Assembly: GCF_019599465.1 (NCBI RefSeq)
Contig: NZ_RKLR01000001.1
Location: forward strand, 124,001 to 188,000
DNA length: 64,000 bases
Reading direction: 5' to 3'
From: Haloarcula rubra
GTDB taxonomy: Archaea > Halobacteriota > Halobacteria > Halobacteriales > Haloarculaceae
The notes beneath the pieces were generated by a model. It saw nothing but the letters and a program-made list of their open reading frames with translations. It was not told the origin of the DNA and searched no databases. Shown in pieces: positions 45,850 to 52,469 of the stretch. A program made the translations under genes and the position numbers. The stretch's first letter is position 1. Each line of letters starts with the position of its first letter.

Positions 45850-47976
45850 CTAATCGTCCGTCTCGCCCTCGTCTGCTGTTTCTGCCTCGGTCGGCGCCTC
45901 TGTCTCAGTCGGGGCCTCGGTTTCCGTCTCAGTCGGTGTCGGCGTTTCTGTCTCGGTTGGTGTCGATGTCTCGGTCGGCGTCTCGGTTTCAGTCTCAGTC
46001 GGTGTCGGTGTCTCCGTTTCCGTCTCTGTTGGTGTTTCCGTCTCTGTCTTGGTCGGTGACGCCGTTTCCGTCTCTGTCTCAGTGGGCGTCTCGGTTGGTG
46101 TCGGCGTGTCGTCCTCTGTCGGCGTCCCGGTTTCCGTCTCCTGTTCTATCTGAACCGCCGAATCAGTCTCTGTCTCTGCAGGTATCTCGGTCCCCGTCTC
46201 GGTTGGACTGGAAGTATCTGTCCCGGTGGCCGTCGGCGTTTCAGTCTCTGTCTCGGTTTCGGTGGGTGTCGACGTCGGTGCAGGGGACGGCGGAGGTGTA
46301 CTCGATTCCGTCGGCGTCGGCTCAGGTGTCGCCGTCGACGAGTCGGATGCTGACCCTCCCGCGTCCATGGTTGGCGTTTGGGTGAGTGTCGGCGTGTCAG
46401 TTCTGCTCGGCGTCTCCGACGCCGGTTCCGTCGCCGTCGTTGTCGGCGTCCGGGTCCCCGTCGACGACTCCGCAGGAGTGGCAGTCCGCGTCGTGGTCGG
46501 AACCGGCGTCGCAGTCGACGTCTCTGCCGGAGTCGCCGTCGGGGCCGATTCGGTGGCCTGAGATTCGGACCCCGAGTCGGCCGACGTCGGTGCCTCGGTC
46601 GCCGTGGATTCGGTCTGCGTCACGGACGCGTCTTCGTCCCGAATTTCGCTCTGTGACGTCTGCTGTTCGGTCGCCGTAGATTCGGCCGTCGTAGCGGTCG
46701 CCTCCGTGGTCGACGTGGCGGCCCCTCCCGCTGTCGACGTCCCGGTCGGAGTCTCGCTCTCGGTGGGTGACGCTGCCCCGGTCGTGGTCCGGGTCGGTGA
46801 CCCCGTCGGTGCTGACGTCGCCGTGGCACCAGCGTCGTCGACCGTCTGTGTAGGGCTCGAACCGTCAGTCCGCGTCTGTGACTCGGTCGCCGTCGTGTCG
46901 TCTGTCGGTGTTGCCGTCGCCGTCTCACTCGGCGTCGGAGCCGACACTTCTGGTGGTGGGTCCGAAGACGAGTCGGTCTCGTCCGTGGACTGTGTCTCCG
47001 ACGAGGTCGTCTCGGGGGACGACGTCGTGACTGGCGAGTCCTCCGACGGAGACTCCGTCGACGAGTCTGGCTGTCGGTCGGCGGACGCAGTGGCCGTATC
47101 GACGGGAGTCGCGGTCGGGGTCGTCGGCGCTTCGCTCTGAGTCGGAGAGTCGGTCTCGGTCCGTGCCGACGTCGGCGTGACGTCTCCCTCCGGCGTCGGC
47201 TCTCTGGACACCACGTCGAGGAGGCTCGCCGTCGACTCGGACTCGGGTGTGCGCGTCTCATCTAGCTGAGTCGTGTCGACGCTCTGGGACGCCACCTGTT
47301 CGGTGCTGCTGTCGGTGCGGGTGTCCGTCTGCTGCTCGGTAGTCCCTCCCGAGTCCTGTGTGTCGGCGTCGCTGTCGCCGCCATCCGACGACGAGTCGGC
47401 GTCACTAGTCTGGGTCGCCGTCGTGGTCGTCTCGGACTGGTTCGTGCCGCCGAAACTGTCGCCGATGTCCTGCACTCGCTCGATGGATCCCTGGATGGTC
47501 TCGGCGAGGGTGTCCTGGAGGCTGCCGCCGCTGCATTCGACGTTGACGGTTCTGTCCAGCGACACCTCGACGCCGCTGCCCGTCGCGCGTATCTCGACCG
47601 TGACCGTCTCCGTGGCACCGCTCTCGCTACAACTGACGTCGGCGACGAGAGCACCGGTCTCGCCGCTGTCGAGCGAGCCCGGTTTCTCGAAGTTCGTCAG
47701 TCGGACGCCGCCGTCGGTTTCGTTCGTGACGGTCAGGTCGAGTTCGAGGGCCCTCCCGAACCGGTTGGTGAACGACGCGAGCGTCACGTCGGAACTGCCG
47801 TTCCCGTCGACGGTGACCCGGTCGTGTGCGATGCCCAGATACGCGTTCTCGTCCTCGACGACGGCCGCGGTCAGCCCCCGCCCGGCGGTCACGCTGCTGA
47901 ACGCGCCGCTCTGTGCCAGCAGCGACGCGAACACCACCAGCGCGCCGACGGCGAGGACGAGTCGGCGTCGCCTCAT
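45850..47976 (-). CDS. Large Thr/Glu-repeat exported protein with TasA-like N-terminus
   Basis: A 708-aa surface protein. A basic n-region and hydrophobic helix (1-26, 'MRRRRLVLAVGALVVFASLL') precede 'GAFSSVTAGRGL' and 'DENAYLGI', the same pattern as the small SipW-type protein at 48893 ('GAFESANATRGV', 'DANAYLKL'). A beta-rich domain (about 30-150) containing 'RTVNVECSGG' follows. From about residue 175 onward the chain is almost only T, S, E, P and A, ending in dense E-T-E-T-P-T repeats. No cell-wall or PGF-type sorting tail is seen. Likely heavily O-glycosylated stalk or matrix protein. The start overlaps the stop of the regulator gene by four bases. Confidence 0.85.
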   Translation of the reverse strand: MRRRRLVLAVGALVVFASLLAQSGAFSSVTAGRGLTAAVVEDENAYLGIAHDRVTVDGNGSSDVTLASFTNRFGRALELDLTVTNETDGGVRLTNFEKPGSLDSGETGALVADVSCSESGATETVTVEIRATGSGVEVSLDRTVNVECSGGSLQDTLAETIQGSIERVQDIGDSFGGTNQSETTTTATQTSDADSSSDGGDSDADTQDSGGTTEQQTDTRTDSSTEQVASQSVDTTQLDETRTPESESTASLLDVVSREPTPEGDVTPTSARTETDSPTQSEAPTTPTATPVDTATASADRQPDSSTESPSEDSPVTTSSPETTSSETQSTDETDSSSDPPPEVSAPTPSETATATPTDDTTATESQTRTDGSSPTQTVDDAGATATSAPTGSPTRTTTGAASPTESETPTGTSTAGGAATSTTEATATTAESTATEQQTSQSEIRDEDASVTQTESTATEAPTSADSGSESQATESAPTATPAETSTATPVPTTTRTATPAESSTGTRTPTTTATEPASETPSRTDTPTLTQTPTMDAGGSASDSSTATPEPTPTESSTPPPSPAPTSTPTETETETETPTATGTDTSSPTETGTEIPAETETDSAVQIEQETETGTPTEDDTPTPTETPTETETETASPTKTETETPTETETETPTPTETETETPTETSTPTETETPTPTETETEAPTETEAPTEAETADEGETDD
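45870..46275 (-). repeat. Low-complexity Thr-Glu-Thr-Pro codon repeats
   Basis: In-frame short tandem repeats encode E-T-E-T-P-T units of variable length at the 3' end of the 708-aa gene. On the plus strand they read as repeated 'gtctcggtc' and 'ggtgtc' words. Unit lengths are irregular, consistent with slippage or recombination, and different from CRISPR repeat-spacer structure. Confidence 0.85.
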
Positions 47977-48566
47977 CGCTCGCGCACCTCTGGTGGCTCG
48001 GCCGTACTCCCGAGGCGTAGCTGCGAGTGATTGAGGTAGGTGTGTACGACCGCGGAGACGAAGACGGCGACGACGAGGAACAGCGCACAGGAGAGGTCAG
48101 GTACCCGACCGAGCGGACCGAGGTCGGCCCACGCGGCCGTGACGACGACCAGCCCGAGCGTGGAGAGCGCGAGGTAGTATCGGCTCCACGGCACGTCCAC
48201 GCCGGGGACGACGTCGAGATACACCTCCAGGTCGGCGACGGCGTCGGCGAGTTCGACGGTCTCCCGGCGGTTGTCGTACTGTACGAACCCGCTGGCGTCC
48301 ATCTTCGGCAGGTGATGCTGGTGGAGCGCAGTCTTGACGCGCTTCGTCTCGGCCGAGGTCAGTTCCCCGACGGCCTTCTCGTTCTCCCACGCCGCGACGT
48401 GTTCCGCGAGTTCGCGGAGGTACACGCGCCGTGCCTGTTGCTTGAGATAGTGGAAGACGAACCGCCTGCGTTCGTTGCTCAGTATCTCGAAGACGGTGTT
48501 TTCGGAGGGTGGCTGATCCGCGCTGCCCTGCTGTGGTCTGGATGGTTCGACGTCGACTTCGCTCAT
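47973..48566 (-). CDS. DUF7344-type HTH regulator with membrane anchor, surface-module copy
   Basis: A 197-aa protein. Winged-helix region (about 20-110): 'ENTVFEILSNERRRFVFHYLKQ', 'LRELAEHVAAWEN', 'AETKRVKTALHQHHLPKMDASGFVQYD' in pieces; then two hydrophobic helices (about 130-150 and 155-180). It is a paralogue of 24048-24617, with the same 'NERRR' and 'HLPKMD/HLPRMD' motifs. ATG 48566 gives the shortest credible N-terminus. It overlaps the Thr-rich protein gene and is divergent from the SipW-type gene, so it may control both through the intervening dyad. Confidence 0.85.
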   Translation of the reverse strand: MSEVDVEPSRPQQGSADQPPSENTVFEILSNERRRFVFHYLKQQARRVYLRELAEHVAAWENEKAVGELTSAETKRVKTALHQHHLPKMDASGFVQYDNRRETVELADAVADLEVYLDVVPGVDVPWSRYYLALSTLGLVVVTAAWADLGPLGRVPDLSCALFLVVAVFVSAVVHTYLNHSQLRLGSTAEPPEVRER

Positions 48567-48892
48567 GATTGGGTCCGTTGACCCCGCGTCAACGCTGCCG
48601 AATCTCACCACAGGGAGGGGACTTAGTTAGATAGATGACATATAGGAATATCCCGAGGTTGTCTCGTTTTAATAGTCGGTAAACTATTACCGGCCGAACA
48701 TACGGTCGGGTTACCGATTCGAAAAGACGGATTGCAGGCCTCAGTACCCTATTTCACCGCTGCAACCGGCGTCTGCATGCTGCGGCCCGCATATACCAAA
48801 GGTGTGATACGATGATGGTGGAAGTGAGCACACTGGAAGCGAATGTTGGTGACGTGATTGGTCGTACGGGTGTGCACAAGGAGCACAAGACA
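48567..48892. promoter_or_regulatory. Divergent intergenic region with nested dyads and two TATA-like boxes
   Basis: A 326-base gap without a gene. For the minus-strand regulator, a TATA-like CCTATATG lies near 48638-48646. For the plus strand, GCATATACC lies at 48789-48797, giving a leader of about 70 nt before ATG 48893. Between them are TAATAG/CTATTA (48670-48675 and 48684-48689) and, nested within, GGTAA/TTACC (48678-48682 and 48687-48691), a plausible operator. An in-frame ATG at 48812 upstream of the SipW-type gene is not favoured. Confidence 0.55.
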
Positions 48893-49378
48893 ATGCAACG
48901 ACGCAAATTCCTCATCGGAATGGGATCGCTCGCCGCTGGTTCAGCGGCTGCAATAGGTACTGGTGCGTTTGAGAGTGCCAACGCAACACGTGGTGTGAGT
49001 GTAAGTCTGGCTGCAGACGCCAATGCTTATCTTAAACTCACTGCCGACGACGAATACGTCACAAACGATAGTGGGACTGGAACCCTGACAGTTGATTTAG
49101 GTGGGCCGACGACCGATGAAGGAGGTCAAGGATTCAACGACAACGCCGTGACGGTAGTGAATACTATCAACATCCAAAACCAGGGCGGGAATCAAAAAAC
49201 AGTTAATATTGATCTCGTTGACAACACTGGTTCAGGTATCCAAGCGGCGCTCAACGGTGATCCCACCTTAGGCCCTGGTGGCTCAGTAAGTGATGCGGTA
49301 CAATTCACGGTCGATACAAAGAACGCAAACCCTGAGAACTCCGGTGGTAACATAGTCATCAAAGCGCAAGAAGTATAA
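48893..49378 (+). CDS. SipW-type exported protein (DUF1102/TasA-camelysin-like)
   Basis: A 161-aa protein. The N-terminus 'MQRRKFLIGMGSLAAGSAAA' and 'GTGAFESANATRGV' is the form found in haloarchaeal DUF1102 and SipW-dependent proteins; cleavage is expected near 'ESANA'. A beta-sandwich domain follows ('DANAYLKLTADD', 'VTVVNTINIQNQGGNQKTVNIDL' in pieces), ending 'GNIVIKAQEV'. TasA/camelysin relatives form extracellular fibres, including bundling pili in Pyrobaculum (from memory). The gene is conspicuously AT-richer than its neighbours, with many A/T third positions. The signal peptidase follows at 49513. Confidence 0.85.
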   Translation: MQRRKFLIGMGSLAAGSAAAIGTGAFESANATRGVSVSLAADANAYLKLTADDEYVTNDSGTGTLTVDLGGPTTDEGGQGFNDNAVTVVNTINIQNQGGNQKTVNIDLVDNTGSGIQAALNGDPTLGPGGSVSDAVQFTVDTKNANPENSGGNIVIKAQEV

Positions 49379-50782: not shown

Positions 50783-51100
50783 ATGACCACCGTCACCAAC
50801 CTCCCTCGACGCCCGCTGGCACCACCGGACGTCGCCGAACTCAACGGCGACGACCGTATCGACGTCGCACCGTACGGCGGGGTGCGGGACGACGGCGTCC
50901 GTATCTACGCGGTCAAGTTGGCCGTCGACGACACCGCGTACGCCCTCGGGTTCGACGACGCGACCGAGCAGTGGGAGCACCTCCTGACGGTGGACGCGGC
51001 GGACCTGTCGGCTGCGGACGACCAGCTCGATACGGTGCTCGACGAGTGGGCCGTCGAGACCTACGGCGGAAGCTTCGACGTGGTGAAGCCTATCGGTTAG
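50783..51100 (+). CDS. Small haloarchaeal hypothetical protein
   Basis: A 105-aa acidic soluble protein: 'MTTVTNLPRRPLAPPDVAEL', then 'VRIYAVKLAVDDTAYALGFDDATEQWEHL', read in pieces, and 'AVETYGGSFDVVKPI'. An alpha/beta fold is likely. No recognisable domain and no signal peptide. It lies inside the surface module between the peptidase and the DUF5305 gene, but nothing in its sequence connects it to export. Confidence 0.7.
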   Translation: MTTVTNLPRRPLAPPDVAELNGDDRIDVAPYGGVRDDGVRIYAVKLAVDDTAYALGFDDATEQWEHLLTVDAADLSAADDQLDTVLDEWAVETYGGSFDVVKPIG

Positions 51101-51296: not shown

Positions 51297-52469
51297 ATGA
51301 ATAGACGTTGGTTGCGCGTGCGGGCGCTGCTGGAGTCGCAGTTCGAACTGCTCGTCGTGGTCCTCCTCGCCCTCGCACTCGCCGGCGGGTGGGTGACCTA
51401 CGGCGCGTACGTCGACCCCGGAACCACGACGGAGGAACGGGTCGTCTCGTCGTGGGGGACGACCGGCGACTACGACCACGCCGCGACGGTCGTCGAACCG
51501 AACCCCATCTACGACGTCGGCACGACGCTGGAGAACCAGTCGCTCTACGTGGCCGCCGTCGCGCCCGAACTCGACGGGACCTTCAGGTTCGGCTACAACG
51601 CGACCGACGGCGGTAACCTCGACGTAACCGTCGCGGAGCATCTCGTCGTCCACTCCGTGGCCGAAGAGGACGACGCGACCGTCGAGGTCTGGCGGCAGGT
51701 CCGCTCGCTCGACGAGCAGTCGGTCGACTCGGTGCGACCGAACAGGACTGTTCGCGTGCCCTTCACCGTCGACGTCAACCGGACGATGAACCGCACGGAG
51801 CGAATCGAGGAACGACTCGGCGACCCGCCCGGGACTCCGCAGATGGCGGTCGTCGCGACCGTCCGGCTGAACGGGACCGTCAACGGGGGCGAGGTCAACC
51901 GCACGATGGAGTACGTCCTCCCGGTCGCCTTCGACCGGGGCGCGTATCGGGTGAACGCGACGGCGGCGACGCAGCGGTTCGAGACGACCGAGACGGTCGT
52001 GGTGCCGCGGGAACCCGGCCAAGCCGAGACCCTCGGCGGGCCGGCAGCGCTCGCGCTGGGACTGCTCGGCCTCGTCGCACTCGGGGCCGCCCGCTGGCGG
52101 AACGACCTCGCACTCACCGACGCCGAACGCGAACGCCTCGCGTTCGAGGACGACCGCGAGGAGTTCGACGAGTGGATCAACGCCATCGAACTCCCGTCCG
52201 ACGCCGAGTCGCTGCCCCGCGCGGAGGCGTCGTCGCTCGGTGACCTCGTCGACTTCGCCATCGACACGGACAACAGCGTCGTCGAGCGACCCGACGACGG
52301 CGCGTACTACGTGATTCACGACGGCTACGCCTACAGCTACGCCCCGCCGGAGATAGACGGAGCGTCACCGGACGACCGCCCGACGACGCCGACGGACGGG
52401 TCCACGATGGAGGCGAGCGGAGCCGAGGCGTCGAGCACCGAGACGGACGGGACCGACGGCGAGAGGTGA
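51297..52469 (+). CDS. DUF5305 family membrane protein
   Basis: A 390-aa protein with an N-terminal helix (about 16-37, 'FELLVVVLLALALAGGWVTYG'), an extracytoplasmic beta-rich domain (about 40-240: 'FRFGYNATDGGNLDVTV', 'TVRLNGTVNGGEVNRTMEYVLPVAF' in pieces), a second helix (about 245-265) and a cytoplasmic acidic tail. DUF5305 genes commonly stand beside SipW-type signal peptidases in haloarchaea (from memory), so a role in processing or assembly of the exported fibres is likely. The start is supported by its position and by a weak upstream box. Confidence 0.85.
   Translation: MNRRWLRVRALLESQFELLVVVLLALALAGGWVTYGAYVDPGTTTEERVVSSWGTTGDYDHAATVVEPNPIYDVGTTLENQSLYVAAVAPELDGTFRFGYNATDGGNLDVTVAEHLVVHSVAEEDDATVEVWRQVRSLDEQSVDSVRPNRTVRVPFTVDVNRTMNRTERIEERLGDPPGTPQMAVVATVRLNGTVNGGEVNRTMEYVLPVAFDRGAYRVNATAATQRFETTETVVVPREPGQAETLGGPAALALGLLGLVALGAARWRNDLALTDAERERLAFEDDREEFDEWINAIELPSDAESLPRAEASSLGDLVDFAIDTDNSVVERPDDGAYYVIHDGYAYSYAPPEIDGASPDDRPTTPTDGSTMEASGAEASSTETDGTDGER

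Follow-up and report, generated by a model that had tools for sequence, protein, structure and literature searches.

A TafC-like protein with a threonine-rich stalk as a candidate terminal subunit of a Tat-fimbriae-type fibre in Haloarcula rubra

A TasA subunit uses its N-terminal strand, residues 28-38 with F29 and I32, to complete the one that follows it in the fibre (PMC9674648). TapA of Bacillus subtilis, as described in PMC10151520, combines a complete immunoglobulin (Ig) domain with a TasA-like N-terminus, is a donor but not an acceptor at the beginning of the filament, and cannot be inside it. The Tat-fimbriae (tafi; Tat, twin-arginine translocation) of haloarchaea were named only in 2025 (Galeva 2025, iScience, as cited in PMC12687288). 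Their assembly order was not found described in the accessible literature, the original tafi paper excepted; a tip role for TafC, a two-ended model of donor-only and acceptor-only subunits, and module swapping were likewise not found in the literature searched, which excluded that paper. The present analysis concerns a stretch of 64,000 nucleotides of Haloarcula rubra (contig NZ_RKLR01000001.1, positions 124,001 to 188,000; below, the window), which is part of a 4.67-Mb genome, and in it two divergently encoded secreted proteins, a giant with a threonine (Thr)-rich stalk and a small protein. By homology of its products, this region is related to the Tat-fimbriae (tafi/taf) locus, in a compact form. 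With a probability of roughly 0.7, the giant is a TafC-type donor-only terminal subunit that starts the fibre, most likely at its distal tip, and shows its stalk there.

The closest described protein is TafC (NCBIfam NF052521), which shares with the giant the N-domain, the signature region, the cysteine pair and the place behind a DUF7344 gene, and whose genes likewise lie near TafA, TafE, TafF, SipW-like and DUF5305 genes. TafC, however, has a Laminin_G_3 module where the giant has a Thr-rich stalk, and the giant scores only 58 bits vs 410. The Natrinema sp. J7-2 Tafi pilin (PDB 9p0a), homologous to the small protein by sequence and also its fold neighbour, and Pyrobaculum AbpA (7ueg), a fold neighbour, are shaft subunits, and the similarity of the giant to 9p0a is confined to the donor region. 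TapA resembles the giant by inference, in that a complete Ig domain, a fibre-type donor N-terminus and a SipW gene in the locus would be common to both, but its tail is different and the likeness is drawn from function and not from sequence comparison. TapA is not known to be Tat-linked. The haloarchaeal S-layer glycoprotein has an extended O-glycosylated stretch before its membrane anchor (PMC2913515), whereas the giant has no anchor.

Homology of the giant and the small protein

The sequence-only reading had pointed to a signature, G-A-F-(S/E)-S-x-x-A-x-R-G-(L/V) with D-x-N-A-Y-L, behind the signal peptides of both proteins, and to a giant over four times longer. The signature is indeed present in both (giant, MRRRRLVLAVGALVVFASLLAQS-GAFSSVTAGRGL...DENAYL; small protein, MQRRKFLIGMGSLAAGSAAAIGT-GAFESANATRGV...DANAYL), and the lengths are 708 and 161 residues (ratio 4.4). 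The exact pattern occurs in none of 5819 background open reading frames of the examined loci. In a BLASTP comparison, 18 of 52 positions are identical (E 2e-6, residues 1-52 in both).

Whether the similarity outlasts residue 45, on which the same reading had made the relationship depend, has a divided answer: in the pairwise comparison it ends at residue 52, while in profiles a weak similarity persists. The profiles represent 56 TafC-like and 70 small, shaft-type mature sequences, these being the window sequence with 55 of 69 (alignment A3) and with 69 of 143 (A4) after selection for coverage, redundancy and length; in alignment A1, L081, L082, L093 and L026 were excluded as near copies or doubtful, which reduced it from 43 to 39 rows. 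The two mature N-domains are aligned with a probability of 98.8%. With 24 or 30 residues cut from the mature N-terminus, the probability is 68% or 71% and the score 29.9 or 29.8, respectively. The corresponding maxima are 11.9 and 12.0 for shuffled columns (100 shuffles each) and 13.0 and 12.9 for reversed profiles. Under the harsher control of shuffling in blocks of 8 columns, the maxima are 28.8 and 18.7, and the observed score is above 100 of 100 in both cuts, although the best block shuffle came close to it once (28.8 vs 29.9). Therefore, the similarity past the signature is real but weak. Judged by sequence, the giant and the small protein are distant relatives, with the strongest shared conservation at the mature N-terminus.

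The small protein matches the NCBIfam models of TafE (38.3 bits, E 1.1e-9) and TafA (27.6 bits, E 2.6e-6) below their cut-offs of 155 and 190 bits. Its family profile matches 9p0a, entitled 'Structure of Natrinema sp. J7-2 Tafi pilus', with E 1.9e-21, and the single sequence does so with E 1.1e-7. These matches identify it as a Tafi-type fibre subunit, a homologue of the Natrinema Tafi pilin. Its model is of moderate confidence (predicted local distance difference test, pLDDT, 76), and the VIA Z values of 6.9 for AbpA, 6.5 for 9p0a and 6.1 for FimA are in the range in which common folds fall too. The segment matching the N-tail of the giant is modelled by AlphaFold as a strand of low confidence. 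In 9p0a, 188 of 215 residues are in the structure and the alignment extends to residue 215; if there is no internal gap, the structure thus begins at F28, the F of GA/F, so that the cleavage site would lie within the motif that both proteins share.

The N-domain of the giant, with the stalk excluded, matches TafC with E 7.5e-16 over residues 15-149 (16-145 of 373 in the model; 58.2 bits, below the equivalog cut-off of 410 bits), TafE with 3e-6 and TafA with 0.005. The whole giant yields only a weak TafE match (3.1e-5) and no listed TafC match, presumably because the Thr-rich part masks it. The giant has no match in Pfam, hence no LamG module was detected. By its profile match, the N-domain is of TafC type. 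The giant belongs to a family apart, which has a conserved pair of cysteines, and is not simply a shaft subunit with a stalk; the profile of this family matches 9p0a (4.2e-5) over the first 35 residues only, that is, the donor region.

AlphaFold predicts a confident fold for residues 40-150 without the N-tail (block means 88-97), while residues 23-39 (model residues 1-17) are disordered (pLDDT <50). The fold matches are Ig-like, PapD-like and alpha-2-macroglobulin-type domains. Tafi and AbpA entries are absent among the 50 fold matches listed, a non-exhaustive list that excludes nothing. Cys116 and Cys148 stand at the ends of two strands, or close to them; both are kept in 38 of the 56 TafC-like relatives, and 66 of the 70 shaft-type sequences have no cysteine. 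The two residues probably form a disulphide in the giant. The common signature and the weak domain-wide profile similarity would agree with a giant that is built into the shaft as a minor subunit, its stalk decorating the fibre lengthwise; this reading is nevertheless improbable in view of the separate family, the occurrence once per locus (see below), the cysteine pair and the confident fold without a donor strand.

Proposed position of the giant in the fibre

Under the proposed mechanism, the small protein would be the shaft subunit, and cleavage at GA/F would free its N-terminal strand for insertion into the next subunit. The giant appears to retain the cleavable N-terminus and the donor strand, so that it could plug into the first shaft subunit. 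Being complete in the prediction and probably disulphide-locked, its sandwich would be unable to accept a strand; the giant would then have to occupy one end, start the fibre, and display its C-terminal module there, in this case a probably O-glycosylated Thr-rich stalk of ~560 residues. TafC-type subunits would thus be donor-only, TafA/TafE-type subunits both donor and acceptor, and TafF-type subunits acceptor-only with a membrane anchor. Since the TafF type would be acceptor-only and anchored, the TafC type would be left at the distal end, by the logic of TapA. For the giant, one may infer donor-strand exchange, initiation, distal location, the disulphide, glycosylation and cleavage by the neighbouring peptidase.

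The C-termini and the strict donor signature were counted for the three types. A hydrophobic C-terminal segment is absent from all 104 TafC-like proteins and found in a single one of the 210 shaft-type and in 55 of 71 TafF-like proteins, proteins cut by the locus end (one TafC-like, three TafF-like, two small) being excluded. The strict signature is carried by 179 of the 210 shaft-type and 54 of the 104 TafC-like proteins and, among the TafF-like proteins with the segment, by 2 of 55, against 7, 9 and 9, respectively, in shuffled copies; a first, looser pattern matched 70 of 71 TafF-like proteins and was replaced by this shuffle-controlled version. The median distance from the signal end to the GPN anchor is 21 in TafF-like vs 29 in small proteins, which supports a shorter TafF N-terminus, the test covering the 20 of 55 and 41 of 212 proteins with both anchors.

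Several points weigh against a donor-only tip. The fold matches of the giant are common folds only (template-modelling score ~0.5), the completeness of its Ig fold is taken from a monomer prediction, and its strand exchange is putative, all models being of single chains. About half of the TafC-like proteins are without the strict donor signature. TafF was not recognised among the scanned proteins of the window locus, and none of the Taf scores in the window comes near its curated cut-off. Finally, TapA itself is described as lying close to the membrane, so that a subunit which starts a fibre may be at its base.

This last point leads to the alternative in which the giant caps the cell-proximal end, initiating at the membrane or S-layer, with a stalk that spans the S-layer as spacer or anchor. 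Besides the reported location of TapA, it is favoured by the proposal, in PMC2913515, that the O-glycosylated domain beside the membrane anchor of the S-layer glycoprotein is a spacer, and by the absence of a TafF-like base gene from the window locus. However, none of the 104 TafC-like C-termini has a membrane helix, TafF-like proteins in related loci already provide such a helix and are without the donor signature, and the lectin and beta-helix modules in the stalk position better suit outward display. A cell-proximal cap therefore appears rather unlikely. The giant had been proposed from the sequence alone as a capping, anchoring or tip version of the fibre subunit with a stalk: membership in the same fibre system, a tip or cap type and the stalk are retained, while anchoring is disfavoured by the C-termini.

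The survey of related loci bears on one further alternative. The 79 loci, all from named organisms, were gathered through the small protein and hence are blind to the giant. Of these, 69 contain a TafC-like gene, which in 68 stands directly behind a DUF7344 gene on the same strand; a DUF7344 gene is present in 75 and is divergent from a shaft-type gene in 72. Therefore, the divergent layout is the family rule. In the window, too, the giant and small genes are not adjacent but separated by the DUF7344 gene, which overlaps the start of the giant gene by 4 bases. This overlap and the pairing in 68 of 79 loci could suggest that the giant is a non-structural secreted partner of the DUF7344 regulator, that is, a sensor of fibre assembly, but the donor-strand signature and the named TafC homology indicate a structural role and make such a partner highly improbable. 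Where present, the TafC-like gene occurs once per locus, while shaft genes number one to several. SipW-like genes are found in 40 loci, DUF5305 in 37, TafF-like in 45 and rhomboid genes in 21, as counted within flanks of 7 kb, which in many cases stop short.

A SipW-like peptidase is encoded in the same cluster as the giant and the small protein, in accordance with the SipW-type setting first suggested for the latter. It is plausible that the giant is glycosylated and that the same peptidase processes both proteins. The signal of the small protein has RRKFL and moderate hydrophobicity, as in Tat substrates; that of the giant has RRRRLVL but a very hydrophobic core (2.79 vs 1.51), and is thus compatible with both Tat and the general secretory (Sec) route. 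Within their first 14 residues, 70 of 72 shaft-type but 21 of 43 TafC-like proteins carry a twin arginine, the start codons of some of the latter being uncertain. The average signal hydrophobicity of TafC-like vs shaft-type proteins is 2.18 vs 1.56 in a first set and 1.72 vs 1.61 in a second. Tat-fimbriae in general might be polar donor-strand fibres, with a donor-only, disulphide-locked TafC-type tip bearing a lineage-swapped module, an acceptor-only TafF-type base with stalk and membrane helix, and, in the roughly one half of the lineages whose tip signal has no twin arginine, tips exported via Sec and the shaft via Tat; this wider model can be put forward only tentatively.

The stalk and other C-terminal modules

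The 559 residues of the stalk include 165 Thr, 74 Ser, 73 Glu and 60 Pro, and O-glycosylation is probable. The O-glycosylated stretch of the haloarchaeal S-layer glycoprotein is Thr-rich as well. The GC content by codon position (0.55/0.70/0.74) is coding-like and the stalk holds imperfect tandem repeats; it is therefore likely that a short tail has grown through repeats. A close relative (L062) has a Thr-rich tail of 24 residues.

Among 104 complete C-termini, the TafC-like domain is followed by at most 15 residues in 26, by 16-60 in 17, by 61-150 in 44, by 151-300 in 13 and by more than 300 in 4. The modules in this place are LamG, bactofilin-type, DUF5649 repeats, acidic runs, Thr/Ser stalks, unknown domains of up to 600 residues, or none. 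Long Thr/Ser stalks are seen in the giant (557 residues past the domain, 43% Thr+Ser) and in Halobium salinum (L172; 414 residues, 51% Thr+Ser). In a bona fide TafC (L091; 567 bits), the same domain is followed by a Laminin_G_3 module (E 3e-23), and the TafA, TafE and TafF proteins of its locus are likewise bona fide, with 250.6, 224.6 and 581.7 bits, respectively. The giant is thus a TafC domain bearing a mucin-like stalk where its best-known relatives bear a lectin, in a system that is itself known (tafi).

Beta-helices of bactofilin type are fused to secreted TafC-like domains at L101:5695-7836 (3.6e-16), L175:6854-8473 and L201:4128-5144 (1.6e-19). The bactofilin-type fold family usually belongs to the cytoplasmic cytoskeleton. 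A module of ~600 residues at L193:4148-5947 has no Pfam match, and that at L194:2383-4176 is similar to it by eye.

Related loci and neighbouring genes

The features of the window locus are listed in Table 1.

Table 1. Features of the taf-like locus in the window (positions of the 64,000-nucleotide stretch)
Feature	Position	Strand	Basis or remark
Giant, 708-aa TafC-like protein, Thr-rich stalk	45850-47976	-	N-domain vs NCBIfam TafC E 7.5e-16
Giant stalk, residues 150-708	45853-47529	-	composition; without C-terminal membrane helix
Giant Ig-like beta-sandwich, residues 40-149, conserved Cys116 and Cys148	47530-47859	-	predicted fold, Cys counts
Giant mature N-tail, residues 26-39, FSSVTAGRGLTAAV; shared signature, putative donor strand	47860-47901	-	pLDDT, family consensus
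Giant signal peptide, residues 1-25	47902-47976	-	motif; GA/F cleavage inferred by homology to Tafi pilin 9p0a
DUF7344 winged-helix protein, C-terminal hydrophobic segments; probable regulator	47973-48611	-	PF24035 E 1.2e-29
Small protein, 161 aa, Tat signal; Tafi-type fibre subunit (TafA/TafE-like)	48893-49378 (ATG at 48893)	+	NCBIfam TafE/TafA and PDB 9p0a matches
SipW-like signal peptidase I, extra C-terminal half, 385 aa	49513-50670	+	TIGR02228 59.9 bits
105-aa protein	50783-51100	+	seen in one other fetched locus only
DUF5305 membrane protein	51297-52469	+	E 3.1e-54; comes after SipW in most relatives

The SipW-like peptidase exceeds the cut-off (51.85 bits) of the archaeal signal peptidase I model TIGR02228, while it scores 38 bits against the Bacillus SipW model (cut-off 190). 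With ~385 residues, it and its relatives are double the length of the latter model (189), and the additional half could be an assembly chaperone or platform. A palindrome in the divergent promoter, CGGTAAactaTTACCG (CGGTAA-N4-TTACCG, 48677-48692), is perfect in the window, but was dropped as a candidate operator: across 97 intergenic stretches, the best scores are no better than those of shuffled sequence, and relatives do not conserve it.

Two more taf-like loci lie elsewhere in the genome of the window. The second is fuller (L025:5755-13006, G000:C11) and encodes a stalkless TafC-like protein, DUF7344, two proteins of shaft type, one of TafF-like type, a rhomboid, a SipW-like peptidase and DUF5305, while the third is reduced (L026:6208-9313). 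Among 293 genomes of the order, a TafC search gives matches in 200 at E 1e-5, some of them to the LamG half only, and 14 over the cut-off. Of the 31 loci in which the TafF-like gene has a rhombosortase-like neighbour (for example, L025:8658-10571), 25 show residues like E-(P/L)-G-G-(F/I) ahead of the membrane helix in the TafF-like C-terminus, as against 8 of 24 loci without such a neighbour (p 0.0007, the motif having been picked after looking); it is possible that TafF-like proteins and rhomboids are an archaeal rhomboid-sorting pair. A contig filed as a Spirochaetaceae metagenome-assembled genome (L118) codes for a shaft protein of haloarchaeal type and is probably misbinned.

The Tat-fimbriae locus shows no usher. 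If true, the division into donor-only and acceptor-only subunits would provide a simple, testable rule for starting, extending and ending an archaeal fibre, and swappable tip modules would explain what each species sticks to.

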